From Lutibacter sp. UBA4458 (GTDB taxonomy: Bacteria; Bacteroidota; Bacteroidia; Flavobacteriales; Flavobacteriaceae), in the NCBI GenBank assembly GCA_002390165.1, contig DGOU01000177.1:2413-24727 (forward strand): DNA of 22,315 nt. The letters run 5' to 3'. Of this stretch, positions 7,232 through 22,315 are shown piece after piece. The notes below the pieces were generated by a model. The model was not told the origin of the DNA. It saw only the letters and a program-made list of their open reading frames with translations, and made no database searches. A program made the position numbers and the translations under genes. Position 1 is the first letter of the stretch, and every line of letters starts with the position of its first letter.

Positions 7232-7621
7232 ATGAATTATTATTTTAGTACAATACTTAAAAACACAACATTTGAAGTTGCTAAAGAAAAAGTTACTGCA
7301 GCATTAAAAGAAGAAGGTTTTGGTGTTTTAACCAATATTGATGTAAGAAAAACATTTAAAAAAAAGTTGAATGTTGATTTTAGACCTTATGAAATATTAG
7401 GAGCCTGTAATCCTCACTTTGCTTATAAAGCTTTATCTGCTGAAGATAAAATTGGTATTATGCTACCTTGCAATGTAGTTATTGAAGAAAATGAAGATGG
7501 CGCTATTGTGGTTTCTGCGGTAGATCCAATAGCATCAATGGGAGCAGTTAAAAATAACAACTTAGAAGAAATTGCTAAAGAAGTTCAACAGAAACTAAAA
7601 AGAGTAATTAATAATCTATAA
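7232..7621 (+). CDS. DUF302 domain-containing protein
   Basis: This 129-residue cytoplasmic protein belongs to the DUF302 family. The hallmarks are the N-terminal TTFEVAKEKVTAALKEEGFGVLTNIDVRKTFKKKL, then the core RPYEILGACNPHFAYKALSAEDKIGIMLPCNVVIEENEDG. Cys residues in GACNP and LPCNV are in family positions. The biochemical role of DUF302 is not established; members often lie near redox or metal genes, and a metal-efflux set follows here. A likely -7 box TATCTTTA lies at 7204-7211 with a TTG 16 bp further up, giving a short leader. Confidence 0.93.
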   Translation: MNYYFSTILKNTTFEVAKEKVTAALKEEGFGVLTNIDVRKTFKKKLNVDFRPYEILGACNPHFAYKALSAEDKIGIMLPCNVVIEENEDGAIVVSAVDPIASMGAVKNNNLEEIAKEVQQKLKRVINNL

Positions 7622-8206: not shown

Positions 8207-11200
8207 ATGCTTAATAAAATAATTCGCTATTTTCTTGAAAACAAGTTAATAACATTTATGTTACTTTTTTCCTTTATTATCGGGGGAATTGTAACCGCTC
8301 CTTTTAACTGGGAGACTTCATTAATTGAAAGAAGTCCTGTACCTGTTGATGCCATACCTGATATTGGTGAAAACCAACAAATTGTATTTACAGAATGGAT
8401 GGGACAATCACCTCAAGATATTGAAGATCAAATTACCTATCCTTTAACCACTGCTTTACTTGGAATTCCTGGTGTAAAAACAATTCGGAGCAATTCTATT
8501 TTTGGATTATCAAGTATTTATATCATATTTAATGATGATGTAGATTTTTACTGGAGTAGAACCCGAATATTAGAAAAATTAAATTCGTTACCTCCTGGAA
8601 CTGTTCCTAATGAAGTAAAACCAGCTTTAGGACCTGATGCAACCGCATTAGGACAAGTGTATTGGTATACTTTAGAAGGTAGAAATCCAAAAACAGGGAA
8701 ACCAAACGGCGGTTGGGATCCTCAAGAATTAAGAACCATTCAAGATTTTTATGTACGTTATTATTTAACTGCTGCTAGTGGCGTTTCAGAGGTTGCCTCT
8801 ATTGGTGGATTTTTAAAAGAATATCAGATTGAAATTGATCCTGATGCTATGAAAGCCAATAATGTAGATGTAAAAATGATTATGAATGCTGTAAAAAACA
8901 GCAATTTAGATATTGGCGCACGTACGTTGGAATTTAATAAAGTTGAATATTTGGTTCGTGGTTTGGGCTATATTAAAAACTTATCCGATTTAGAAGAAAG
9001 TGTAGTAACCGTAAATAATAACGTTCCTATTCGTTTAAAAGATGTTGCCAAAATACAATTTGGCCCAGCTACACGAAGAGGTGGCTTGGATAAAAGTGGT
9101 GTGGAAGCTGTTGGCGGTGTTGTAGTAGCTCGTTACGGTGCAAATCCGTTAGAAGTAATTCAGAATTTAAAAAAGAAAATTTCAGAAGTTGCTCCAGGAT
9201 TACCTTCCAAAACATTAGCGGATGGAACGGTATCTAAAATAACCATTGTGCCTTTTTATGATCGCTCTGGTTTAATTCATGAAACTTTAGGAACCTTAGA
9301 ATCCTCCCTTTCTCACGAAATTTTAATTAGCATTCTAGTTGTTATTGTATTAGTTTTAAATCTTAGAGCATCGGTATTAATTTCAACATTATTACCTGTT
9401 GGAGTTTTAATGACTTTTATATTAATGAAGTTTTTTAATGTTGATGCTAATATTGTAGCTTTATCAGGTATCGCTATTGCTATTGGGGTCATGGTTGACG
9501 TGGGAATTGTATTTACCGAAAATATTATTCGACATTTAGAAATGCCTGAAAATCATGGTGCTTCAAGAAAAAAACTAGTCCAAATTATTTATGCTGCTAC
9601 GGTTGAAGTTGCATCGGCAATTATGACTGCCTTAGCAACTACGATTGTTAGTTTTTTACCAGTTTTTGCAATGCAAGCATCCGAAGGAAAACTATTTAGA
9701 CCTTTAGCATTCACCAAAACATTTGCTTTAGTTTCTTCTTTATTTATAGGAATTATGTTTATACCGGCAATAGCACAAGTATTATTCTCTATAAAAATAG
9801 ATAAAAAGAGAACTAGCCGAATTTTCAATTCATTATTAATAGGTTTTGGAATTGTATTTTTAATAGCCTACGGAAGTGTAATTGCTTTAGCTTTAGTTGC
9901 GTTTGGAGTAAACAATTTGTTAACTCAGGTATCCGAACGTTCTTTCTTAAAAAACAGAATTAAGTTACCTTATTCTGAAAAGATTGCTAATTATATAAAT
10001 ATTGCAATTACCGTTTTAATTGTAGTTTACTTTTTAACCGTAGAATGGATGCCTTTAGGAGCATCAAACTCAACATTTGTTAATTTTATTTTTGTCATTT
10101 TAATTGTTGGGGTTGTTTTAGGATTGTTAATGACTATTGTTCATTTCTATGATGTAGTTTTAAAATGGTGTTTAGAAAATAAATGGAAATTCCTTTCCAT
10201 TCCTATTATAGTTGTTTTCTTTGGAGCTACCATTTGGTTGGGCTTTGGTAAAGTATTCGGTTTTATGCCAAACTTTGTAAAAACCAACAGCGCATGGAAT
10301 AGTTTAGAAAGTAAACTCCCAGGTATTGGTAAAGAATTTATGCCTGCTTTAGATGAAGGCTCCTTTTTATTAATGCCAACTACCATGCCTCATTCTGGAA
10401 TTACAGAAAATATGGAAGTAATAGCAACTATTAATAAACATATGAATGCTATTCCTGAAATAGCTACATCTGTAGGCAAATGGGGACGCGTAAACTCTGC
10501 TTTAGACCCTGCTCCTACTTCTATGTTTGAAAATACTATTAACTATATTCCAGAATATATTTTAGATGAAAACGGAAGAAGAGTACGCTTTAAAGTAAAT
10601 AAAGAAGAGGCTTTTGTTTTAAAGGATGGCTCCACTTATAAATACAATAAAGACAAATATCGTAAAATTTCTAAAGAAGAACTTACAAAAGATGAAGATG
10701 GAGAATATTTTAGACAATGGCGACCAAAAATTAAAAAAGCAGACGATATTTGGAAAGAAATTGTAAAACATTCTAAATTTCCAGGGTTAACTTCTGCTCC
10801 AAAATTACAACCTATTCAAACACGTTTAATCATGTTGTCTACCGGAATGCGAGCTCCTATGGGAATTAAAGTTTTCGGTCCAACATTAGAATCTATTGAA
10901 AAAGTTGGTTATCAATTAGAAAGTTTATTAAAAGAAGTACCAAGTGTAAACCCTTCTACCGTTTTTGCAGACAGAGTTGTTGGAAAACCTTATTTGGAAA
11001 TAAAATTAAACCGACAAGCAATGTCTAGATATGGTTTAACCATAAAAGATATGCAAATGCAATTATCCGTAGCTATTGGTGGAAAACAATTAACCACCAC
11101 TGTTGAAGGTAGAGAACGTTTTCCTGTACGAGTTCGTTATGCACGTGAATTTAGAGATAATCCTGAAGATATCAAGAAAATTTTAATTCCAACTCCAGCA

Positions 11201-12046
11201 GGTGTTCAAGTTGAATTAGGGGAATTAGCATCTATTGAATATAGACGCGGGCCACAAGTTATTAAAAGTGAAGATACTTTTTTAACAGGATATGTAATTT
11301 TTGATAAGAAAGAAGGACATGCAGAAACCAATGTAGTAGAAGCTGCTCAAAAATTAATTAAAGATAAAATAGATTCTGGCGAATTTAAATTACCAGCAGG
11401 TGTTACTTATCGATTTACAGGAAATTATGAAAATCAAATTAGAGCCTCTAAACGTTTAATGTTAGTTGTTCCAATTTCATTAATTTTAATTCTGTTGATT
11501 TTATATTTTCAATTTAAACATATTTTGCCATCCTTAATGGTGTTTACAGGAATTTTTGTAGCCTTTTCAGGTGGTTTTATTATGATTTGGTTATACGGAC
11601 AAGATTGGTTTTTAAACTTCAGTTTTGCAGGAATACCTATGCGAGATTTATTTCAGCTCCATACTATTAACTTAAGTGTTGCGGTTTGGGTAGGATTCAT
11701 AGCATTATTTGGTATAGCCACCGATGATGGGGTTATTATGGGAACTTATTTAACCCAAGTTTTTGAAGAAGAAAAACCAAAAACCGTTAAAGACATTAGA
11801 GCTTCCATTTTACACGCAGGATCTAAAAGAGTACGACCAGCAATGATGACTGCAGCAACTGCGATAATTGCACTAATACCAGTACTTACCGCAACGGGTA
11901 AAGGAGCTGATGTTATGGTACCAATGGCAATTCCATCTTTTGGTGGTATGCTTTTACAAGTAATGACCATGTTTGTGGTTCCTGTACTTTACAGTATGTG
12001 GAAAGAACATAATTTAAAGAAAGAATTAAAAAAAATACAAGTTTAA
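8207..12046 (+). CDS. cusA: CusA/CzcA-family heavy-metal RND efflux pump, probably Cu(I)/Ag(I)
   Basis: This is the inner-membrane RND transporter that drives metal export by proton antiport through a tripartite pump. The N-terminal helix is followed by the porter domain, DVGIVFTEN in the proton-relay helix, and a second membrane bundle ending near residue 1270. The three methionines that bind Cu(I)/Ag(I) in E. coli CusA (M573, M623, M672) have clear counterparts: M723 (LLMPTTM), M773 (PAPTSMFENT) and M876 (LIMLSTGM). The first two are again exactly 50 residues apart, which favours Cu/Ag over Zn/Co. At 1,279 residues it is about 230 longer than the E. coli protein. About 150 residues are added before M723, including extra hydrophobic segments (about 540-675), and a charged insert of about 54 lies between M773 and M876. 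Long forms are common in Bacteroidota. A TolC-family gene follows after 10 bp. Confidence 0.95.
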   Translation: MLNKIIRYFLENKLITFMLLFSFIIGGIVTAPFNWETSLIERSPVPVDAIPDIGENQQIVFTEWMGQSPQDIEDQITYPLTTALLGIPGVKTIRSNSIFGLSSIYIIFNDDVDFYWSRTRILEKLNSLPPGTVPNEVKPALGPDATALGQVYWYTLEGRNPKTGKPNGGWDPQELRTIQDFYVRYYLTAASGVSEVASIGGFLKEYQIEIDPDAMKANNVDVKMIMNAVKNSNLDIGARTLEFNKVEYLVRGLGYIKNLSDLEESVVTVNNNVPIRLKDVAKIQFGPATRRGGLDKSGVEAVGGVVVARYGANPLEVIQNLKKKISEVAPGLPSKTLADGTVSKITIVPFYDRSGLIHETLGTLESSLSHEILISILVVIVLVLNLRASVLISTLLPVGVLMTFILMKFFNVDANIVALSGIAIAIGVMVDVGIVFTENIIRHLEMPENHGASRKKLVQIIYAATVEVASAIMTALATTIVSFLPVFAMQASEGKLFRPLAFTKTFALVSSLFIGIMFIPAIAQVLFSIKIDKKRTSRIFNSLLIGFGIVFLIAYGSVIALALVAFGVNNLLTQVSERSFLKNRIKLPYSEKIANYINIAITVLIVVYFLTVEWMPLGASNSTFVNFIFVILIVGVVLGLLMTIVHFYDVVLKWCLENKWKFLSIPIIVVFFGATIWLGFGKVFGFMPNFVKTNSAWNSLESKLPGIGKEFMPALDEGSFLLMPTTMPHSGITENMEVIATINKHMNAIPEIATSVGKWGRVNSALDPAPTSMFENTINYIPEYILDENGRRVRFKVNKEEAFVLKDGSTYKYNKDKYRKISKEELTKDEDGEYFRQWRPKIKKADDIWKEIVKHSKFPGLTSAPKLQPIQTRLIMLSTGMRAPMGIKVFGPTLESIEKVGYQLESLLKEVPSVNPSTVFADRVVGKPYLEIKLNRQAMSRYGLTIKDMQMQLSVAIGGKQLTTTVEGRERFPVRVRYAREFRDNPEDIKKILIPTPAGVQVELGELASIEYRRGPQVIKSEDTFLTGYVIFDKKEGHAETNVVEAAQKLIKDKIDSGEFKLPAGVTYRFTGNYENQIRASKRLMLVVPISLILILLILYFQFKHILPSLMVFTGIFVAFSGGFIMIWLYGQDWFLNFSFAGIPMRDLFQLHTINLSVAVWVGFIALFGIATDDGVIMGTYLTQVFEEEKPKTVKDIRASILHAGSKRVRPAMMTAATAIIALIPVLTATGKGADVMVPMAIPSFGGMLLQVMTMFVVPVLYSMWKEHNLKKELKKIQV

Positions 12047-12056
12047 AATTAGAAAA

Positions 12057-13304
12057 ATGAACCTAAAAATTTATACTATAATTTTCATCAGTTTGTTGCT
12101 ATTAGTTAGTACAACTTCTTTTAGCCAGTCTAATCTTGAAAGTTATTTAAAAACAGCAGCCAAAAATAATTCTGAATTAAAAGCAACATTCAGTGAATAT
12201 ATGGCTGCCATGGAAAAAGTACCTCAAGTAGGTGCGTTACCTGATCCACAAGTTGCTTTTGGTTATTTTATTGAACCAGTTGAAACACGGGTTGGACCTC
12301 AAAAATGGAAATTTAATTTAGCACAAAATTTTCCTTGGTTTGGTTTATTAGAAGCAAAAGAGAATGTAGCAACTGAAATGGCAAATGCCAAATTTGAAAA
12401 ATTTGAGAATGCAAAATCTAATCTATTCTTTGAAGTAAAAACAGCTTTTTACAATTATTATTTTATGGATAAAGCTATTAAAATCACCAAAGAGAACATG
12501 GATATTTTACAAGTTTTCAAACGCTTATCTTTAGTTAAAATTGAAGCTGGAAAAGCGTCTATTGTTGATGAATTACGCGTTGAATTAGAGTTGAATGATT
12601 TAGAAAATCAATTGGCATTATTTGTAGATACCAAAAATACGATTCAAACAAAATTTAATAACTTATTAGCAAGAGAGGTTTCAAAAAACATTATGATACC
12701 AGATACTTTGTGGCAAGACGAATTACCATTTGACAAATTAAATATGTTAGATGAAATTTACGCTGAAAACCACCAATTAAAAAGTTTAGATCATAAATTA
12801 AATGCTTTTGTAAACCAAGAAGTAGTTGCTAAAAAAGAAGGATTGCCAAAATTTAATATTGGATTAAATTATACGGTAGTTGATAAAAACCCTTCTTCAA
12901 CAGCAATTGACAATGGCAAAGATGCTTTTTTGTTTCCTTCCGTAGGAATTAAAATACCTGTTTTCAGAAAAAAATACAAAGCATTAATTAAAGAAGCCAA
13001 GCTATTACAAGAAGCGGTAACCAATAAAAAAGAGGATAAAAAAAATGTATTAAGTTCTATTAACACCGCTGCTTACAAAGATTTTAGCGATGGTGATAGA
13101 AGAATAGCATTAAACAAAAAACAAGCGCAAATAGCAAAAAAAGTACTAGACGTATTAATCACTTCTTATTCAACAAATGCAACAAATTTTGAAGAAGTTT
13201 TACGTATGGAACGTCAATTATTAAAATATGAATTAGCTTATCAACAAGCTCTAATCGATAAAAATGCTGCTGTAGCATTTATGCACTATCTAATTGGAAA
13301 ATAA
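12057..13304 (+). CDS. TolC-family outer membrane efflux channel (CusC-like)
   Basis: This is the outer membrane exit duct of the metal pump. Its 415 residues begin with a signal peptide (1-24, ending TSFSQ), followed by two long helical-hairpin repeats typical of TolC proteins: about residues 28-200 and 230-412. The family features GALPDPQVAFGYF, KWKFNLAQNFPWFG and PSVGIKIPVFRKKYKALIKEA mark the two strand-helix junctions. The start is 10 bp after cusA, and the stop is 10 bp before the chosen start of the adaptor gene, so the three pump genes form a tight operon. Specificity is set by context, not by this protein. Confidence 0.94.
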   Translation: MNLKIYTIIFISLLLLVSTTSFSQSNLESYLKTAAKNNSELKATFSEYMAAMEKVPQVGALPDPQVAFGYFIEPVETRVGPQKWKFNLAQNFPWFGLLEAKENVATEMANAKFEKFENAKSNLFFEVKTAFYNYYFMDKAIKITKENMDILQVFKRLSLVKIEAGKASIVDELRVELELNDLENQLALFVDTKNTIQTKFNNLLAREVSKNIMIPDTLWQDELPFDKLNMLDEIYAENHQLKSLDHKLNAFVNQEVVAKKEGLPKFNIGLNYTVVDKNPSSTAIDNGKDAFLFPSVGIKIPVFRKKYKALIKEAKLLQEAVTNKKEDKKNVLSSINTAAYKDFSDGDRRIALNKKQAQIAKKVLDVLITSYSTNATNFEEVLRMERQLLKYELAYQQALIDKNAAVAFMHYLIGK

Positions 13305-13314
13305 AATCAATAAT

Positions 13315-14631
13315 ATGAAAAAATATAAAAATTATATCATAGGAATCGGTATTTTAATACTCGGAATTATTTTAGGAAACGTGTTTTCTAGAGATAATAC
13401 CAAACCTTCACATAATGAAGAAGAACACCATTTTGTACAAGATCCTATTACAAAACTATGGACCTGTTCTATGCACCCACAAATAAAAATGGAAAAACCA
13501 GGAAAATGTCCAATCTGTGGAATGACACTTATCCCCATTGATGATAGCGCAGCTACTGATGAAAAGATAGAGTCAAATGAAATTGTTTTAACCCCTGAAG
13601 CAATTCAGTTAGCAAATATTCAAACTTCTATTGTTAAAAAAGCAAATGCAGTAAAACAAATTCGTTTATTAGGCAGAGTTAAACCAGATGAAAGGCGATT
13701 ATACTCACAGGTATCTCATATTCCAGGACGAATTGAACGCTTGTATGTAAACTTTACCGGTGAAAAAGTTTACCGAGGACAAAAAATTGTTCGTATTTAT
13801 TCTCCTGAATTAATTACCGCTCAAAAAGAATTATTTGAAGCAATTAGGTCCCGAGCTATTTATCCTCAATTATATACAGCGTCTCGTAATAAATTAAAAT
13901 TATGGAAACTATCTGACAAACAAATAAGTGCCATTGAAAAATCTGGAAAAGTTCAGGAACAAATAGATATTTTATCTGATTATTCTGGCTACGTAATGAA
14001 AAGAAATGTAGAGCTTGGAGATCATATAATGGAAGGAAGTAACTTATTTGATATTGCAGATTTAAGCAGTGTTTGGGTCATGTTTGAAGCTTATGAATCC
14101 GACATACCGTGGATTCAAGTAGGAAACACTGTGGATTTTAAAATAAGTGCAATTCCAAACAAAAATTTTAAAGGTAAAGTTACTTATATCGATCCTTTTG
14201 TTTCATCAAGTACAAGAGTTGCTAAAGTAAGAATTGAACTTAAAAATCCAGGTAGTAAATTATTACCTGAAATGTATGCTAATGGTATAATTAAAGCGAC
14301 ATTAACCCATGTTAAAAATGCTATTATAGTTCCTAAAACAGCAGTACTTTGGACAGGTAAAAGAGCCGTTGTTTATGTTAAAGTTCCGCATGAAAAAACC
14401 ATTTCATTTGTGTACCGTGAAATTATTTTAGGGCAAGATATGGGTGATTTTTACATTGTAGAAAAAGGTTTAAAAGAAGGTGAAGTTGTAGCAACAAACG
14501 GTGTGTTTAGAATTGATGCATCCGCACAATTAATTGGTCAAAAAAGTATGATGAGCCCAACTGGTGCATCCGGAAATTCTGGTAGTATGGCAGGAATGGA
14601 TATGGGTGAAAAAGATAAAATAAAAGACTAA
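13315..14631 (+). CDS. cusB: CusB-type periplasmic adaptor with N-terminal heavy-metal-binding domain
   Basis: This is the membrane-fusion protein that links CusA to the outer membrane channel. A single N-terminal anchor helix (residues 8-24) is followed by a His/Glu patch and a heavy-metal-binding domain, WTCSMHPQIKMEKPGKCPICGM (49-70; C51, M53, H54, C65, C68, M70). The lipoyl/hairpin and beta-barrel domains follow (about 100-360). The C-terminus is Met-rich (SMAGMDMG), a possible extra Cu(I) site. The ATG at 13315 was chosen because the upstream TTG at 13294 would overlap the previous gene and add seven polar residues before the anchor. The cys-rich domain and Met-rich tail agree with a Cu/Ag pump. 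A strong terminator closes the operon. Confidence 0.94.
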   Translation: MKKYKNYIIGIGILILGIILGNVFSRDNTKPSHNEEEHHFVQDPITKLWTCSMHPQIKMEKPGKCPICGMTLIPIDDSAATDEKIESNEIVLTPEAIQLANIQTSIVKKANAVKQIRLLGRVKPDERRLYSQVSHIPGRIERLYVNFTGEKVYRGQKIVRIYSPELITAQKELFEAIRSRAIYPQLYTASRNKLKLWKLSDKQISAIEKSGKVQEQIDILSDYSGYVMKRNVELGDHIMEGSNLFDIADLSSVWVMFEAYESDIPWIQVGNTVDFKISAIPNKNFKGKVTYIDPFVSSSTRVAKVRIELKNPGSKLLPEMYANGIIKATLTHVKNAIIVPKTAVLWTGKRAVVYVKVPHEKTISFVYREIILGQDMGDFYIVEKGLKEGEVVATNGVFRIDASAQLIGQKSMMSPTGASGNSGSMAGMDMGEKDKIKD

Positions 14632-14738: not shown

Positions 14739-15566
14739 TTATTCTAACATCCACTTAAAAAGTTCTTTTTCGTTATTTATAGACCAAGAGAAATAATCAT
14801 TTTCAGGCAACTTTTCTAAAGATTGTATTTTCTCACCTGAATTGCGCCCTTTTTTTAAACTTTCGGATAGTTTTTTTAAATAAAAAATATTTTTATTCGT
14901 GTAATTATCCTGTTCATTAGCTCTATTTAATTCCCAATCAGGATAAGAATAAACTCTAAACTTAGTATTTAATAACTCAAAAACATTTTGAATAGAACTC
15001 GATTTTAAAACATATGGTGAATGTTTTTTTATAAACTCATAATCATTCTTTAAATTGTTATTTTCATTATTAAATACTGATATAGCAAAAGTTATCATGG
15101 TTAGTGGTTTACTTTTTAATTGACTAGGAGTTGTTTTTACAACTTTTGTGAATAAATTAAATAGGCTTACCGTAGAGTCTATAATAAAAGCTCCTTTTGG
15201 CTGAATTTCATGTGATGTTTTAATCAAATAATTACTTAACCTTAACACAACATTTCCGCCTCCAGAATAACCACCAATAAATAGGTTATCCTTTTTTAGT
15301 TTATTAACTTTAATTATAGCATTTAATAAAAATACAATTTTTTCACATTCCTTTTTTGTAACGTAAAAATGTAATTTTAAATTCATAAAAAGTAAGGAAA
15401 TCCCATTTTCAATAGCAAATTTCACAATGTTATAGTCAAAAATTGAATGTACATTATTACTATATTTATCTGCAAAAAAAACTAACAAACCTTGTTTATT
15501 ATTTGGAATAACCAGCTTATAATCCTTAGTAATAATAGTTTTAAAATCTTCTTCTTCTTTTTTCAA
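14739..15566 (-). CDS. Alpha/beta-hydrolase-like protein of unknown substrate
   Basis: This 275-residue protein has no signal peptide. FIGGYSGGGNVVLRLSNYL (about residues 96-114) is a nucleophile-elbow motif (G-x-S-x-G) with Ser as the candidate nucleophile, and FIIDSTVSLFNLF and KFRVYSYPDWELN look like later strands of the fold. No helpful His or Asp of a triad could be fixed with confidence. The start is probably TTG at 15566, since the frame upstream has no ATG before a stop. Many Bacteroidota carry similar unnamed hydrolase-like proteins; the substrate cannot be told. It lies alone, convergent with the cus operon. Confidence 0.7.
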   Translation of the reverse strand: MKKEEEDFKTIITKDYKLVIPNNKQGLLVFFADKYSNNVHSIFDYNIVKFAIENGISLLFMNLKLHFYVTKKECEKIVFLLNAIIKVNKLKKDNLFIGGYSGGGNVVLRLSNYLIKTSHEIQPKGAFIIDSTVSLFNLFTKVVKTTPSQLKSKPLTMITFAISVFNNENNNLKNDYEFIKKHSPYVLKSSSIQNVFELLNTKFRVYSYPDWELNRANEQDNYTNKNIFYLKKLSESLKKGRNSGEKIQSLEKLPENDYFSWSINNEKELFKWMLE

Positions 15567-15866
15567 AACAATGTTTTTTTTGCTTATTATATTTTATTCG
15601 TAAAATTGTAATTTGCATATTATTTTTATGGTAAATAATAGCCTGTAATAATTTAAATAAAAAAGGGGTGAAATAAATATTGAGGTAAATGAAATGATTA
15701 TTTTTAATTTAGATTTTTTAAAAACAATTAATCGATTTTAAATATACAAATTTTTGATTTAAATAGCAATCTTAATCGTTTCTAATAAAAAGCTACTAGC
15801 TAAAAAACACAACCCAATTAAGGATTGTGTTTTTTAGCTAGTAGCTTTATTTGTTCTTACAATCAT
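15567..15866. other. AT-rich intergenic stretch
   Basis: Apart from the long hairpin at 15789-15848, I see no gene, RNA or repeat in this stretch. It should contain the promoter of the hydrolase-like gene, but no clear TAnnTTTG box was found. Confidence 0.5.
15789..15848 (-). terminator. Very long hairpin ending the small secreted-protein array
   Basis: Two perfectly complementary 24-nt arms (15789-15812 and 15825-15848) enclose a 12-nt loop that can add two more G-C pairs. The hairpin starts 18 bp after the stop of the last small secreted-protein gene. Runs of A and T inside the arms and a T-rich tail on the minus strand fit a terminator. It is unusually long and could act from both sides. 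Confidence 0.8.
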
Positions 15867-16190
15867 TTATTCTAGAGTAGCAATAAGCGGTACTATTGGA
15901 TATAATATTTTAGTTGGTTTTATTAATTTAGGAATATCCGTTTCTATTTTTTGTACAAAATGCTTTGACATCTTAAAATTAACATTTAATATATCTGCTT
16001 TTTTGAAATCGTTTAAATATAAATCTTTTTTTTCTGTATTCTTTTTTTGAATTAAAACTGTCGGATCTATTTTTAAATTATTAATTTCAGAATTCTTAAT
16101 GGTACTAAAATTACTATTCTTTAAATTTGTTGCAAATAAACCTGCTGAACCAATTACCAAGGCTAATGCCAATAATTTAAATTTTTTCAT
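15867..16190 (-). CDS. Small secreted protein of unknown function (array member 1, divergent mature part)
   Basis: I do not recognise the mature protein. It is 107 residues long with a signal peptide nearly the same as its two neighbours (MKKFKLLALALVIGSAGLFA). The rest is Lys- and Asn-rich (for example LKIDPTVLIQKKNTEKKDLYLNDFKKADILNVNF) and shows no clear match to the other two mature parts. The 5' leader AAACCTATTAATC before ATG, the -7 box (TAATTTTA, 16226-16233) and the upstream inverted repeat (16255-16274) are shared with the other copies. It may be a diverged paralogue, or an unrelated gene that gained the shared promoter and signal peptide. Confidence 0.75.
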   Translation of the reverse strand: MKKFKLLALALVIGSAGLFATNLKNSNFSTIKNSEINNLKIDPTVLIQKKNTEKKDLYLNDFKKADILNVNFKMSKHFVQKIETDIPKLIKPTKILYPIVPLIATLE

Positions 16191-16225
16191 GATTAATAGG
16201 TTTATAGTTATTAATTGGTTTAGAT

Positions 16226-16274
16226 TAAAATTAGTTAAATTTGAAATGAAATGCTACTACATAAACTGGTAGGA
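16226..16274 (-). promoter_or_regulatory. Operator-promoter A: CTAC-N8-GTAG plus TAATTTTA
   Basis: The core inverted repeat CTAC-N8-GTAG is at 16257-16272 (full 20-bp span 16255-16274, with outer bases partly lost). Exactly 21 bp separate it from the minus-strand -7 box TAATTTTA at 16226-16233. The same layout is found before the two neighbouring genes. Confidence 0.7.
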
Positions 16275-16283
16275 TTTAAAGAT

Positions 16284-16619
16284 TTAACTTCCTTTAAATT
16301 GAATAGGAATTTTAAATACCCTATGCGTTTCTACCGGAGCATCAATTTTCATTCCGTTTACATTTTTTCTAATATAATTTAATACTTCACGGTTTTTATT
16401 GTCAACATCTAAGACAATAATTTTGCCAGAATTATCAAATTTCAAGGTAACAAGTACTGTGAAATCTTCGGTAAGGTCCATTTCATGTGCTGCGGTAAAT
16501 AGCTCAGAAATCTGACTATTAATTACTTCTACAGGAACATCTGGTAGATCAGTACTTTTTGCAAATAAACTTGTTGTTGCAATTACGAAGGCTAATGCCA
16601 ATAATTTAAATTTTTTCAT
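16284..16619 (-). CDS. Small secreted protein, array member 2
   Basis: This 111-residue protein has a signal peptide (1-20, MKKFKLLALAFVIATTSLFA) and a mature domain starting DLPDVPVEVINSQISELF. The second half (VLVTLKFDNSGKIIVLDVDNKNREVLNYIRKNVNGMKIDAP) has a beta-beta-alpha pattern that recalls the TonB C-terminal fold. That likeness is only my reading of the pattern. It is about two-thirds identical to array member 3, without gaps. Small exported proteins of this look occur in other Flavobacteriaceae, to my knowledge without assigned function. It has its own operator-promoter. Confidence 0.85.
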   Translation of the reverse strand: MKKFKLLALAFVIATTSLFAKSTDLPDVPVEVINSQISELFTAAHEMDLTEDFTVLVTLKFDNSGKIIVLDVDNKNREVLNYIRKNVNGMKIDAPVETHRVFKIPIQFKGS

Positions 16620-16694
16620 GATTAATAGGTTTTTAGTTAATAGTTAAAAGTTGGTTTTAGTTAATTGGTTAATGAATAAAATTATTTTGTTTTA

Positions 16695-16743
16695 TAAAAT
16701 TAAGCTTGTTAATTAAATGATGCAACTACACAAAATAGTAGTT
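16695..16743 (-). promoter_or_regulatory. Operator-promoter B: AACTAC-N8-GTAGTT plus TAATTTTA
   Basis: A perfect inverted repeat (6-bp arms, 8-bp spacer) lies at 16724-16743, 21 bp from the minus-strand -7 box TAATTTTA at 16695-16702. The repeat stands in for a -33 element and would be centred near -42. Confidence 0.8.
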
Positions 16744-16753
16744 TTACTTTTTT

Positions 16754-17089
16754 TTAAGATCCTTGAAATCTTAATGGAACAATAAATACTCGGTCTAATT
16801 CTACAGGTGCATCAATTTGTTTGTTATTCATGTTTTTTCTAATATAATTTAAAACATCTCTGTTTTTAGAATCTATTTTTAAAACAATAATTCTCCCGTT
16901 TTCATCAAATTTAAAAAGTACATTTACTGTTTTATCATAGGTTATTGGTAACTTATGTTTAGTGGTAAATAATTCTGATACCTGATTATTAATTACTTCT
17001 ACAGGTACATCCGGTAGGTCAATACTTTTTGCAAATAAACTTGTTGTTGCAATTACGAAGGCTAATGCCAATAATTTAAATTTTTTCAT
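16754..17089 (-). CDS. Small secreted protein, array member 3
   Basis: This 111-residue exported protein is a close paralogue of member 2. The signal peptide is the same through residue 22 or so, and the mature part reads DLPDVPVEVINNQVSELF, then VNVLFKFDENGRIIVLKIDSKNRDVLNYIRKNMNNKQIDAPVELDRVF. About 59 of 91 mature residues match. It is the first gene of the array next to the divergent kinase gene. Its stop is only 10 bp from operator B of the next gene, and no separate terminator is seen between members, so transcripts may run on to the long hairpin at 15789-15848. Confidence 0.87.
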   Translation of the reverse strand: MKKFKLLALAFVIATTSLFAKSIDLPDVPVEVINNQVSELFTTKHKLPITYDKTVNVLFKFDENGRIIVLKIDSKNRDVLNYIRKNMNNKQIDAPVELDRVFIVPLRFQGS

Positions 17090-17138
17090 GGTTAATAGGT
17101 TTTAGTTAATTTAATAATTTTGTTGGTTTTTAGTTATG

Positions 17139-17187
17139 TAAATGTACCCTACAAAAAAAAGTAAATCAACTACACAATATTGTAGTT
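17139..17187 (-). promoter_or_regulatory. Operator-promoter C: AACTAC-N8-GTAGTT plus TACATTTA
   Basis: A perfect inverted repeat lies at 17168-17187, 21 bp from the minus-strand -7 box TACATTTA at 17139-17146, serving the gene that starts at 17089. On the plus strand no -7 box lies at the same distance. The site therefore seems aimed at the small gene and not at the divergent kinase gene, although it lies in their shared spacer. Confidence 0.8.
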
Positions 17188-17309
17188 TTTACAAGTATGT
17201 CCTAAAAAATAACGGTTATTTAGTTTATTTCATTTATATTTATTTTCAAAATATTTAACATTTTATAAAAAACTTATCATTATTAGCCCCATTTAATAAT
17301 TTGTATATT

Positions 17310-20300
17310 ATGTGGCGAAATTGGTATAAAACGGCAGTCTTTCTTCTCTTTATAATTCTTTCATTTGTAGATGTTCAATCTCAAGAATATGACTATATTT
17401 TTAATGAAACTAAAAATACAAAGCTTCAAAACCACAGTATAACTAGTATAGTTCAAGATTTAAATGGTTTTTTATGGATAGGAACTAATTTAGGATTATA
17501 TAGATATGATGGATACGACTTTACTCCTTTTAACATTTCGTCTAAACCTTCGCAATTAGATAATCATATAACCACTTTATTAACGCACAACGAAAATTTA
17601 TGGATTGGATCAGATCAGGGAATTCATATTTTAAACACAACTAATTATAAAATTACAAGTTTAACCAACCATAAAAATGATACAACAAGCATACCTATAA
17701 ATATGGTATCCAAATTATATAAAGATAAACAGAATACTATTTGGGTTTGCTATAACACAAACCAAATAAGTAAATATTTAGGCAATAACCAATTTAAAAA
17801 TTTTACAATTTCAAGCTTGTCTGCTGATTTTAAATTAGATAATATTTTTGAAACCTTTGGCAATTCCTATATTTTAAAATTTAGCAATAACAAAACTAAA
17901 ATTACTAAAATTATTAGAGCTCGTTTAATTAATAATAAATTCTATATCAAAACACTAAAGAAAATAAATTATGGAAATAATGTATTATTTAACTTTGATT
18001 ACAAAATTTATTTAATCGAAAATAATAACATCTTTAGTTATAATAGTTTTATTGATGGATTTAAATTAACACCTTCATTTTTTAATAATACTCTTGATTT
18101 TCAAGTAGCAACCTACTTTAAAAAAAACGCTATTTATTTAGGAACAAGTAAAAGTAGTTTTTACAAATTATCGTTTGGTAAAAACATTTCAATGGTTAAT
18201 ACCATTATAGACCAAAACAATAGCAGGGTTAATAATTTTTTAGTAGATAAATCTGGAATTTTATGGGTAGGCACATCATCTGGTTTATACAAATTAAAAA
18301 AACAAAAAAAACTTTTTAATACATATTTATACAATAATCAATTAAATAAAGAAAATGAAATCAGGTCCATAATTCAAGATTACAAAGAAAACATTTATGC
18401 TATAAACCAAAATGACATTTTTCAATACAATTTTACAACTAAAAAGTTTGATAATTTAAATTGGTTGAATAACATAAATTCAACACCTTTTACAATCTGT
18501 GAATATGACAACAATAATTTTCTTGTAGGTTTTCAAGGAGGAGGAATTGGAATTTATAATAAAAAAACAACTAGTTTAAAAAATTATTTTGAAAATAAAT
18601 CAACTGTTAGTAGTAGTGTTTTAAAACTTTTTAAAGACAAAAATAATATAGTCTGGATTGGAACTTTAAATGGCTTAAATTATTATGATCAGAAAAAAGA
18701 TACACTTATAAAAAACCTAAATCTAAGCAAAGACCATTTAAAATCTGATATTATTTTTGATATTAAATTAGATAGTGAAAACAACCTTTGGGTTGGTACA
18801 AATAACGGTCTATTTAGTTTAAAAGTTGATTATTCAACTAATCCTTTAACCATTAATTCCTTTAAAATTAAAAACCTCCCTTATGAAATTCATTCTATAT
18901 TAATAAATAAAAATATTTTATGGCTAACCACTAAATTTAATGGATTATTAAAATATAATACAAGCACAAAAAAAACCATCCTTTTTAACGAGTCTAAAGG
19001 ATTGAGTGTAAATACTACATATTCTATACTTCCTGGAAAAAGAAATGAACTTTGGATTGGAACTTCATTTGGGTTATCTCGTTTTGACACTATTCAAAAT
19101 GAATTTATGAATTTTTTTGATTATAACGGACTTGCAGGTAGTCAATCTAATTCTTTTTCTCAACTAAAAACTAAAACAGGTCAATTATTTTTTGGTGGTA
19201 AAAACGGAATTACCTCTTTTTTTCCTGTTCAAATCGCAATAGATTCAACTAATTACCCCTTAAATTTGGTTAATATTAATTGGTATAACACTAATAAAAA
19301 ATCAAACACAATTAAAACAAAAATAAACAACCAACGCTTTACTGAGTTAAAAATACCTTTTAATAATGCCTTTATTACGTTTGAATTTTCTTTAGCAGAT
19401 TATTTTAAACCAACTAAAAATCATTTTAAATATCGATTAAATGGCTTTTTAAACGAATGGAAAATACTGAACAACACCAACAAACTTTCTTATACAAATA
19501 TACCTCCCGGAAAATATCTTCTTGAAGTTTTAGCCTTAAATGCAGATGGGAATTGGAATAAAGAAACATTAAGATTACCAATTACAGTAAATCAAATTTA
19601 CTACAAACGTTGGTGGTTTATTTTAGCGATTGCCCTTTTCTTTGGATTACTATTATTTTTAATAAGAAAATACGAACTAAGCCACATTTTAAAAATGGAG
19701 AATTTAAGAATACGAATAGCGCGTGACTTACACGATGAATTAGGAAGCATTTTAACAGGAATAGCAATTAAATCTGATTTACTTCTTGAAAAAATAAAAT
19801 TTAATTCTAAAAAAGAAATATTAAAGGTAATATCTGAACAAAGCAGAATTGCAGTAGATTCCTTAAGTGATATAGTTTGGGCTATAGATTCTAAAAATAA
19901 TAGTATTCAAGAATTATCGGATAGAATGGAAAGTTTAATGTATCAATTTCTATCTCCATTAAATATTTCTATTACTTATCAAACACTACAAAACATTAAA
20001 AATTTGGAAATAAACCAAGACTATAGACAACATGTATTCTTAATTTTTAAAGAAGCAATTACAAACATTATAAAACATTCCAATGCCAGTCTTGTTTTTG
20101 TTTCTATGGTAAAGAAAAAATCATCTATTAAATTAACCATTGCAGATAATGGAACTAAAATTACTACTAGCAAAAGTAATTTAAATGGAAATGGAATTAA
20201 CAACATGACCTTACGCGCAGAAAAAATTAAAGGAAAAATTAAATTTTCTAATGATAATGGTTATACTGTTGAATTAAATTTTCCTTATAAAAATATATAA
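17310..20300 (+). CDS. Membrane sensor histidine kinase with beta-propeller sensor and HisKA_3 core
   Basis: This is the sensor of a two-component system. The signal peptide is at about residues 1-25. A large extracytoplasmic part (about 26-690) holds at least nine Reg_prop-type repeats of the pattern hhxDxxGxLWIGTxxGL. A Y_Y_Y domain follows (about 695-765; KYRLNGFLNEW, TNIPPGKYLLEVLA), then one membrane helix (768-787). The cytoplasmic core has an H-box of the NarX/DegS type, ARDLHDELGS, with H808 as the phosphorylated residue, then the N-box EAITNIIKH (915-923) and G-box residues ADNG (945-948) and GNGINNMTLRAEKIKG. It lacks the receiver and AraC domains of hybrid (HTCS) systems, so a separate regulator is needed; that gene follows directly. 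ATG 17310 was preferred to TTG 17301. Propeller sensors of this class often detect glycans, but the ligand is unknown. Confidence 0.95.
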   Translation: MWRNWYKTAVFLLFIILSFVDVQSQEYDYIFNETKNTKLQNHSITSIVQDLNGFLWIGTNLGLYRYDGYDFTPFNISSKPSQLDNHITTLLTHNENLWIGSDQGIHILNTTNYKITSLTNHKNDTTSIPINMVSKLYKDKQNTIWVCYNTNQISKYLGNNQFKNFTISSLSADFKLDNIFETFGNSYILKFSNNKTKITKIIRARLINNKFYIKTLKKINYGNNVLFNFDYKIYLIENNNIFSYNSFIDGFKLTPSFFNNTLDFQVATYFKKNAIYLGTSKSSFYKLSFGKNISMVNTIIDQNNSRVNNFLVDKSGILWVGTSSGLYKLKKQKKLFNTYLYNNQLNKENEIRSIIQDYKENIYAINQNDIFQYNFTTKKFDNLNWLNNINSTPFTICEYDNNNFLVGFQGGGIGIYNKKTTSLKNYFENKSTVSSSVLKLFKDKNNIVWIGTLNGLNYYDQKKDTLIKNLNLSKDHLKSDIIFDIKLDSENNLWVGTNNGLFSLKVDYSTNPLTINSFKIKNLPYEIHSILINKNILWLTTKFNGLLKYNTSTKKTILFNESKGLSVNTTYSILPGKRNELWIGTSFGLSRFDTIQNEFMNFFDYNGLAGSQSNSFSQLKTKTGQLFFGGKNGITSFFPVQIAIDSTNYPLNLVNINWYNTNKKSNTIKTKINNQRFTELKIPFNNAFITFEFSLADYFKPTKNHFKYRLNGFLNEWKILNNTNKLSYTNIPPGKYLLEVLALNADGNWNKETLRLPITVNQIYYKRWWFILAIALFFGLLLFLIRKYELSHILKMENLRIRIARDLHDELGSILTGIAIKSDLLLEKIKFNSKKEILKVISEQSRIAVDSLSDIVWAIDSKNNSIQELSDRMESLMYQFLSPLNISITYQTLQNIKNLEINQDYRQHVFLIFKEAITNIIKHSNASLVFVSMVKKKSSIKLTIADNGTKITTSKSNLNGNGINNMTLRAEKIKGKIKFSNDNGYTVELNFPYKNI

Positions 20301-20325
20301 AACTACCTATTCATGTAGTTTTATA
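20296..20325 (+). promoter_or_regulatory. Operator-like inverted repeat D / possible attenuator between kinase and regulator genes
   Basis: The stretch 20301-20320 is AACTAC-N8-GTAGTT, the same as operators B and C, but the arms extend to a perfect 11-bp stem (20296-20306 and 20315-20325). A T-rich run follows at 20331-20341. It may be an operator for the regulator gene, a terminator behind the kinase gene, or both. The nearest -7-like box (TATATTAT, 20341-20348) is weak and 20 bp away, not 21. Confidence 0.65.
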
Positions 20326-20374
20326 CTATCTTATTTTTTTTATATTATAAAACATTAAAACAAAAACCTATATT

Positions 20375-21001
20375 TTGAAAATTGCAATAGTAGAAGACCA
20401 TAGAATTATTAGAAACGGATTAGAACTTTACTTTAAAAGTATTCCCGATTTTAATTGTGATATTGCAGTAGAATCAGTTGAAGATTTCCTTAAATGTATA
20501 GTGAATAGCCCAGAAATTGATGTTGTTTTATTGGATATAAACTTACCAGGAATGACTGGTATTGAAGGAATTCACCATATAAAACATCAATACCCTAACA
20601 TATCTATAATTATGCTAACCATTTATAAAGATGAAAAACACGTTTTTGATGCTTTAAAAGCTGGTGCAGATGGTTATTTATTAAAAAACACACCACTAAA
20701 AACTATTAAAAAAGGTTTATTACAAATATTAGAAGAAGGTGCACCTATTTCCCCTTTAGTAGCAAAAAAAGTTATTAATTTTTTCAATCCACAAAAAAGA
20801 AATAAAAAGAATGGATTTGAAGAATTAACTGCCCGAGAAATTGAAGTATTACATGCAATGTCAGAAGGATTAGCCGCAAAAAATATTGCAGATAAATTAT
20901 TTGTTTCTATTGATACCGTTAGGTTTCACACAAAAAATATTTACAAAAAATTACAAGTAAACAGTAAACTAGGAGCTGTAAAAAAATATTTGATTAGATA
21001 A
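20375..21001 (+). CDS. NarL/LuxR-family response regulator
   Basis: This is the partner DNA-binding regulator of the kinase encoded just upstream. The receiver domain (1-118) carries the acidic pair E7/D8, phosphorylated D54 (VVLLDINLPG), T82 and K104. The C-terminal LuxR-type helix-turn-helix (about 148-205) reads LTAREIEVLHAMSEGLAAKNIADKLFVSIDTVRFHTKNIYKKLQV. The start is TTG at 20375; it places MKIAIVEDH right where the family begins and no ATG is near. The inverted repeat 55-74 bp upstream matches those before the three small secreted-protein genes, so autoregulation and control of that array are likely. NarL-type proteins bind as dimers to inverted repeats, which fits. Confidence 0.96.
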   Translation: MKIAIVEDHRIIRNGLELYFKSIPDFNCDIAVESVEDFLKCIVNSPEIDVVLLDINLPGMTGIEGIHHIKHQYPNISIIMLTIYKDEKHVFDALKAGADGYLLKNTPLKTIKKGLLQILEEGAPISPLVAKKVINFFNPQKRNKKNGFEELTAREIEVLHAMSEGLAAKNIADKLFVSIDTVRFHTKNIYKKLQVNSKLGAVKKYLIR

Positions 21002-21060
21002 ATTATAACACCTTATTACTTCAATTTAATTTAAAACTCTAAAATTGATATAATATTTTT

Positions 21061-21068
21061 TACATTTG
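21061..21068 (+). promoter_or_regulatory. -7 promoter box TACATTTG upstream of the aminopeptidase gene
   Basis: A perfect TAnnTTTG match lies 48 bp before the ATG at 21117. No clear -33 element at the usual distance was found, and the AACTAC-N8-GTAGTT repeat is absent. Confidence 0.55.
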
Positions 21069-21116
21069 AATAGATAATTATAACCAATATTTAAGTAAAA
21101 TAACATCTAACCTTTT

Positions 21117-22315
21117 ATGAAAACACTCTATTTAATTGTATTTTTTTTTCTTGTTATTAACTTTAGTTATTCGCAAAAAGAAGCCAAGTTATTTACTCAT
21201 GCAGATACGCTTAGAGGTTCAATAACTCCAGAAAGAAGTTGGTGGAATGTACTTAAATATGATATTACTATTGAACCAAATTACACTCAAAAAACCCTTA
21301 AAGGATTTAACAAAATCACCTTTAAAGTAATTCAAGAAAACCACAGCTCATTTATGCAAATAGATTTGCAAAAACCTATGCAAATAGATAGCATTTTATT
21401 AAATGAAAAATCAAAATTAGAGTTCTTTAGAGAAGGTAATGTTTTCCATGTTTCCACTAAAAATCAAGTTTTAAACCAAGAAAACACCGTAAAAATATAC
21501 TTTCAAGGAAAACCAAAAATAGCGGTAAATCCGCCTTGGAATGGAGGTTGGTCATTTATTAAAGATAAATTAGGAAGACCTTGGATGACGGTTACATGTC
21601 AAGGTTTAGGAGCTTCGGTATGGTATCCTAACAAAGACCATCAAAGTGATGAACCTGATAATGGAGCCTCTTTAACCATGATAGTTCCTAATAATTTAGT
21701 TGGAGTAGCAAATGGCAGACTTAAATCTAAAACCTTAAATAATAATGGTACAACCAGTTACACTTGGGAAGTTAAAAACCCAATTAACAATTATGATATT
21801 ATTCCTTATATAGGTAAATACGTTAATTTTAATGAATCCTATCCAGGATTAAAAGGGAAATTAGATTTAAATTATTGGGTGATAGATTATAATTTAGAAA
21901 AAGCTAAAAATTATTTACCCAAAGAAGCTCGCAACACTTTAAATAGCTTTGAATATTGGTTTGGTCCCTACCCTTTTTATGAAGATGGTTATAAATTGGT
22001 AGAAACAAAACATTTAGGCATGGAACATCAATCTGCCATTGCTTATGGAAATCAATTTAAAAAAGGATATTATGGAAGTGACTTGTCGGGAACAGGTTTT
22101 GGCTTAAAATGGGATTATATTGTGGTGCATGAAAGTGGCCATGAATGGTTTGGTAATAGTATTACTAGTAAAGATATTGCGGATATGTATATTCATGAAA
22201 GTTTTACCGATTATAGCGAAACTTTATTTGTAGAATATATGTTTGGTAAAGAAGCTGGCAACCAATACAACTTTGGTTTAAGGCGCAATATAAAAAATGA
22301 CAAACCAATTATTGG
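21117..22315 (+). CDS. M1-family zinc metallopeptidase (aminopeptidase), 3' end outside window
   Basis: This is the N-terminal 399 codons of an exported M1 (gluzincin) aminopeptidase. A signal peptide (1-20, ending NFSYSQ) is followed by the beta-sheet N-terminal domain (RSWWNVLKYDITIEP and on). The substrate-binding motif appears as LGMEHQSAIAY (the family GxMEN, with His for Asn). The zinc site HESGH (338-342) and the third ligand E361 lie at the normal 18-residue spacing (HExxH-x18-E); E339 is the catalytic base. The frame is open to the window edge with no stop. The protein probably works in the periplasm or outer membrane on peptides. The start follows the usual signal-peptide form. Confidence 0.94.
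   Translation, partial: MKTLYLIVFFFLVINFSYSQKEAKLFTHADTLRGSITPERSWWNVLKYDITIEPNYTQKTLKGFNKITFKVIQENHSSFMQIDLQKPMQIDSILLNEKSKLEFFREGNVFHVSTKNQVLNQENTVKIYFQGKPKIAVNPPWNGGWSFIKDKLGRPWMTVTCQGLGASVWYPNKDHQSDEPDNGASLTMIVPNNLVGVANGRLKSKTLNNNGTTSYTWEVKNPINNYDIIPYIGKYVNFNESYPGLKGKLDLNYWVIDYNLEKAKNYLPKEARNTLNSFEYWFGPYPFYEDGYKLVETKHLGMEHQSAIAYGNQFKKGYYGSDLSGTGFGLKWDYIVVHESGHEWFGNSITSKDIADMYIHESFTDYSETLFVEYMFGKEAGNQYNFGLRRNIKNDKPII

Follow-up and report, generated by a model that had tools for sequence, protein, structure and literature searches.

Which protein reads the inverted repeat AACTAC-N8-GTAGTT, and to what effect, is the question raised by a 22,315-nucleotide stretch of DNA (hereafter the window) from Lutibacter sp. 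UBA4458, whose draft genome comprises 2.47 Mb in 263 contigs (69.9% complete; genus Lutibacter). At positions 15867-21001 of the window, three minus-strand genes for small secreted proteins are followed by a divergent sensor kinase gene and a response regulator gene, and copies of the repeat recur through this locus. An earlier note, made from the sequence by itself, took the repeat for the binding site of that regulator and the small proteins for its output. The answer reached here is that the repeat is, in all likelihood, the operator of the adjacent NarL/LuxR-type regulator, which would activate the small-protein genes and its own gene at sigma-A promoters; the earlier note was right on the motif and very probably right on the protein that reads it.

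The core CTAC-N8-GTAG occurs at 16257-16272, 16726-16741, 17170-17185, and 20303-20318, exactly where the four copies had been placed, although the window also holds a fifth, at 7463-7478, which lies within the 7232-7621 reading frame and has no promoter box. Three cores extend to the perfect 20-mer AACTAC-N8-GTAGTT, with no further full copy in the window, and the copy upstream of the 15867-16190 gene departs from it by three mismatches (Table 1). The first three copies do precede the three small secreted-protein genes, each at exactly 21 bp from a minus-strand TAnnTTTA box, as had been described; the 15867-16190 product, however, although similar in its signal peptide, is not of the same family as the other two. 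Over 1000 windows simulated with a first-order Markov model, the mean numbers of cores, full 20-mers, and cores with a box 23 bp on were 0.077, 0.001, and 0.001, respectively, compared with 5, 3, and 3 in the window itself. Copies scattered through the genome had been named as a finding that would tell against the proposal, yet the perfect 20-mer occurs three times in the draft genome, always at the locus, and the pattern core-N20-26-TAnnTTTR likewise three times (control, 1), always upstream of the small secreted genes. Near-matches stand at background level, as 8 one-mismatch 20-mers were found elsewhere and 18 matches with up to one mismatch for the reversed-pattern control.

A motif alignment drew on 23 of the 25 cores found in the window and in nine regions from relatives (the cores at window position 7463 and at L057:3691, which have no box, were omitted); because sites were chosen by their core, its invariance in the alignment is built in. 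The relatives' sites take the form AACTACAT-N4-ATGTAGTT, the inner AT of which is scarcely kept in the window copies, and the window sites are a degenerate version of that form, a point that the earlier note had missed. The box lies 21 bp from the site in 19 of the 23 cases and 20 bp in three, and one (window copy 4) has no consensus box. In Flavobacterium psychrophilum, the sigma-A -7 box TAnnTTTG spans -12 to -5 (PMC9723704); on that numbering the repeat would reach from about -53 to -34, with its centre near -43.5. The estimate agrees with the centre near -42 put forward earlier. A centre near -42 at a fixed distance from the box is the class II-type geometry, a comparison of geometry that uses predicted start positions, and a site near -43 fits activation.

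The same placement could also serve repression: the regulator would bind these sites, and activity of the kinase–regulator pair would silence both the regulator gene and the small genes. Lying at about -53 to -34, a site borders on the -33 region and might stand in the way of RNA polymerase. Negative autoregulation, too, is common, whereas NarL-family regulators at such a position are usually activators. That 19 of the 23 sites keep a spacing of exactly 21 bp points to contact with RNA polymerase, since a blocking operator would be expected to drift more. Repression is accordingly considered unlikely, and activation by the adjacent regulator is the reading retained.

That the copies adjoin genes for a kinase and a NarL-type regulator was borne out by Pfam profile search. 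The regulator carries a receiver domain (PF00072; 82 bits, cut-off 30.2) and a C-terminal GerE helix-turn-helix (PF00196; 61.5 bits, cut-off 23.5), and its residues D54, T82, and K104 are invariant across eight orthologues. In the kinase, HisKA_3 scored 32.8 bits against a cut-off of 24, and HATPase_c, at 25.6 bits, fell just below a cut-off of 26.4 that is exceeded in the relatives' loci L054 and L057. The kinase orthologues of these two loci, from Lutibacter litoralis and Lutibacter agarilyticus, are without the Reg_prop propeller and keep Y_Y_Y and the kinase core.

Close regulator orthologues (75-83% identity, E<=1e-60) were found in 8 of 38 genomes of the genus, including those of L. litoralis, L. 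agarilyticus, Lutibacter sp. HS1-25, and a Lutibacter metagenome-assembled genome. All 22 matches to the core followed after 20-21 bp by TAnnTTTR in the 38 genomes lie at the locus; such sites occur in all eight regulator-positive genomes and in 1 of the 30 others (G016), an association with a Fisher's exact p of 2e-7, uncorrected for relatedness. The suggestion that sites should track the kinase–regulator pair in related genomes was thus upheld, with no match away from the locus, and loss of the repeats where the regulator is kept, a result that would have spoken against the proposal, was seen in no regulator-positive genome. A strict form (CTACAT-N4-ATGTAG, 20-22 bp, box) gave 18 matches in 7 of the 38 genomes, all at the locus (reversed control, 0), and among 397 family genomes from 237 genera it gave 2 matches in two genomes (control, 1), one in L. 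litoralis at the locus and the other in G109, in the final part of a long FtsZ-like frame. Outside the genus, a search of 299 family genomes, in each of which up to 10 top first-look candidates were scored, gave no regulator orthologue at E<=1e-55; looser cut-offs were passed over because paralogues abound. A relative is present in 2030 plasmid records, in every case below 60% identity, the expected family background. In L. litoralis, a site stands upstream of two secreted proteins of another kind (no Pfam match above cut-off), and the site therefore travels with the regulator rather than with one small-protein family. Motif, spacing, rarity, co-occurrence, and domain content were all obtained by computation, and across these genomes site and regulator stay paired while sensor and targets vary.

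This pairing bears on whether the palindrome might be the operator of another, unlinked regulator, such as a one-component repressor, that controls the cluster. Repressor operators are likewise palindromic and located at promoters, and a palindrome at -43 could serve one. Yet sites are present in every one of the 8 regulator-positive genomes and in 1 of the 30 others of the genus, and a palindrome sits in the NarL-type regulator's own promoter in all eight. The only recurring transcription regulator recognised by eye at the relatives' sites is also the NarL-type one (no systematic search for DNA-binding domains was made). Control by an unlinked regulator is consequently regarded as distinctly unlikely, and the neighbouring NarL-type protein is kept as the reader of the repeat.

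The fourth copy, whose role the earlier note did not address, belongs, on comparison with relatives, to the promoter of the regulator gene itself. A palindrome is present in the kinase–regulator gap of all eight genomes when up to two core mismatches are counted; the core is perfect in five and carries one or two mismatches in three (L054, L057, and L059). A consensus box follows the palindrome after 19-21 bp in seven of the eight, the window having only an imperfect one. Given the palindrome in all eight gaps and the box in seven, copy 4 is best read as a putative autoregulatory site. It could instead be supposed that the palindromes act as RNA hairpins, with copy 4 as a terminator between the kinase and regulator genes: in the window, the stem of this copy is lengthened to 11 bp, with a U-rich stretch behind it (-9.6 kcal/mol, z -4.1). 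By eye, the relatives do not keep that long stem, the other copies lie upstream of a -7 box and are hence not part of the transcript of the gene behind them, and the window has no Rfam match at gathering scores, which together make a hairpin role highly improbable and leave copy 4 as a likely operator.

Several observations nevertheless weigh against activation by the linked regulator. The inner AT of the relatives' sites is missing from the window's own copies; copy 4 has no consensus box, its nearest candidate being TATATTAT at 20 bp; and 4 of 21 small genes have no site of their own, so that co-transcription or an absence of regulation is required for them. The genomes are related, and the Fisher p overstates their independence; G016 has four sites and no regulator was found there (the assembly is 62% complete, and the contig starts inside the kinase gene). 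Loose-pattern totals, finally, do not exceed the reversed control, itself a different word with its own frequency: with 18-22 bp spacing in 37 genus genomes (all but G060), 36 matches (22 at the locus and 14 elsewhere) compare with 43, and at 20-21 bp 22 compare with 21. As the raw loose counts are not above control, the argument rests on the location of the matches, not on their number. Besides G016, the lax scan covered 28 regulator-negative genomes of the genus, 9 of which gave isolated off-locus matches; 13 of these 14 matches were inspected, all 13 lie inside open frames of at least 100 codons, and no regulator of matching type was seen near them.

The likely output of the module consists of two small-protein families, A and B, that recur behind the sites. 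Seven loci carry them (the window, L055-L059, and L061), and 17 of their 21 small genes have their own exact-core site. The 15867-16190 product, of family B, has no Pfam or NCBIfam match at 0.001; a C-terminal tail, mostly of the form ...PxIxxKE, is common to it and to the L055-L061 proteins. Many small genes are preceded by a 5' leader close to TAACTAAAAA...TAATCA-ATG, as at 16190-16213. In L. agarilyticus, a perfect AACTACAT-N4-ATGTAGTT copy at L057:3691-3706 has no -7 box; it precedes a gene for a secreted protein and lies about 1.3 kb ahead of the locus's small genes.

Family A has a predicted fold that may resemble TonB/TolA C-terminal domains, at weak Foldseek E-values. TonB_C (PF03544) matched neither of the two window proteins at 0.001, nor 16287-16619 at 0.1, and hhalign of the family against two TonB C-termini from the same genome gave a probability of 0.7% (E 0.076); sequence comparison thus gave no proof of homology to TonB_C. 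No Pfam domain scored above cut-off in a 300-amino-acid protein whose C-terminal part matches family A. The family is widespread in Flavobacteriaceae, mostly with promoters there that resemble those of extracytoplasmic function (ECF) sigma factors: in regions L173-L212, an ECF-like GTAAC-N14-20-[A/C]GTC pattern lies upstream of 33 of 49 family A genes. Among 40 family A regions away from the locus (37 from other genera and three from L. litoralis, mostly best-scoring rather than randomly drawn), no matching regulator or kinase was found and no core with a box precedes a family A gene; three regions (L181, L188, and L205) contain a single core copy. In L188, L197, and L200, a T run follows a different inverted repeat (GTAGTGTAACACACTAC or a sequence close to it), which by eye looks like a terminator of the preceding gene and was set aside. 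Family A proteins might, on a tentative and rather doubtful structural reading, be free-standing periplasmic domains similar to TonB/TolA C-terminal domains that serve in Ton/Tol-type energy transduction as its soluble partners or decoys, mostly ECF-driven elsewhere and taken over by a dedicated, autoregulated two-component system in one Lutibacter group.

The mechanism proposed here, from the kind of cue through phosphorylation and binding to activation and feedback, is inferred. The kinase would sense a periplasmic cue via its propeller/Y_Y_Y part and phosphorylate the regulator, a dimer of which would then bind AACTAC(AT)-N4-(AT)GTAGTT, centred near -43 and beside the -33 region, and activate the adjacent sigma-A (TAnnTTTR) promoter. 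Its targets would be the neighbouring genes for small periplasmic proteins, two to five per locus and most with their own site, together with the regulator gene, which would provide positive feedback. As far as the genomes compared indicate, the module is self-contained and confined to a subset of Lutibacter. The coordinates of its parts are collected in Table 1.

Table 1. Features of the repeat-bearing locus of Lutibacter sp. UBA4458 (window coordinates).
Feature	Position	Strand	Remarks
Putative operator copy 1	16255..16274	-	core CTAC-N8-GTAG; differs from the full 20-mer at 3 positions; precedes the 15867-16190 gene
-7 box TAATTTTA	16226..16233	-	21 bp from copy 1
Family B small secreted protein, 107 amino acids, likely output	15867..16190	-	
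Putative operator copy 2	16724..16743	-	perfect 20-mer
-7 box TAATTTTA	16695..16702	-	21 bp from copy 2
Family A small secreted protein, 111 amino acids, predicted fold possibly TonB/TolA C-terminal-domain-like, likely output	16284..16619	-	
Putative operator copy 3	17168..17187	-	perfect 20-mer; in the divergent gap between small genes and kinase gene
-7 box TACATTTA	17139..17146	-	21 bp from copy 3
Family A small secreted protein, 111 amino acids	16754..17089	-	71% identity to the 16284-16619 product
Sensor kinase, 995 amino acids	17313..20300	+	Reg_prop repeats, Y_Y_Y, HisKA_3, HATPase_c
Putative operator copy 4	20301..20320	+	perfect 20-mer; directly 3' of the kinase stop codon, in the regulator promoter region
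Candidate imperfect -7 box TATATTAT	20341..20348	+	20 bp from copy 4; by comparison with relatives
NarL/FixJ-type response regulator, 208 amino acids	20375..21001	+	Response_reg and GerE; TTG start

Elsewhere in the window, 8207-14631 holds large RND-type efflux genes, probably for metal efflux (CusA-like protein and outer-membrane factor called by eye, HlyD/HMBD adaptor by Pfam).

In kind, the locus is an already known one, a local two-component regulon. NarL/FixJ (LuxR-type, GerE) regulators with HisKA_3 kinases have the same domains as the Lutibacter pair, and that class commonly has as its operator a palindrome of about 16-20 bp near -40; the Lutibacter promoter differs in being of the Bacteroidetes -7 type, and the targets in being uncharacterised small periplasmic proteins. 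The lux box, next to its promoter and centred close to -42, is likewise a 20-bp inverted repeat beside a sigma-70 promoter, whereas the Lutibacter GerE domain is carried by a receiver-domain protein instead of a pheromone receptor such as LuxR. Bacteroidetes hybrid two-component systems (HTCS) of polysaccharide loci combine a Reg_prop and Y_Y_Y periplasmic sensor and a histidine kinase with a fused AraC-type regulator; sensor and kinase domains are alike in Lutibacter, but the regulator is separate (208 amino acids) and NarL-type, the 995-amino-acid kinase has its own gene, and two kinase versions are without the propeller. No SusC/SusD-like frame was recognised by eye at 14739-22313, and no profile search aimed at such proteins was made.

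Within the open-access literature, no report of AACTACAT-N4-ATGTAGTT or of the locus was found (the motif letters themselves were not queried), nor any defined operator for a flavobacterial NarL-type regulator, nor any link of such an operator to a TonB/TolA-like small-protein family or to confinement at one locus. At L214:5353-7320, from a genome of the same order and another family (G053), CTACAC-N4-GTGTAG palindromes with TAnnTTTR boxes lie around a GerE-domain regulator gene: they precede a gene whose product may be a FeeM-like N-acyl amino acid synthase (below the Pfam cut-off) and, 1.1 kb on, a TonB-receptor-like gene (by eye). The palindromes may be the operators, similar in form, of a separate signalling system of LuxR type.

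Given that the motif, its promoter spacing, its rarity, and its target list can all be read from genomes, binding and activation could be tested with few constructs. The locus connects a sensor with small periplasmic proteins of an uncharacterised, widespread family, and it suggests two promoter types for that one family. If the proposed takeover of family A is true, it would amount to a complete replacement of the promoter, from ECF to sigma-A with an operator, in which the output family was kept.

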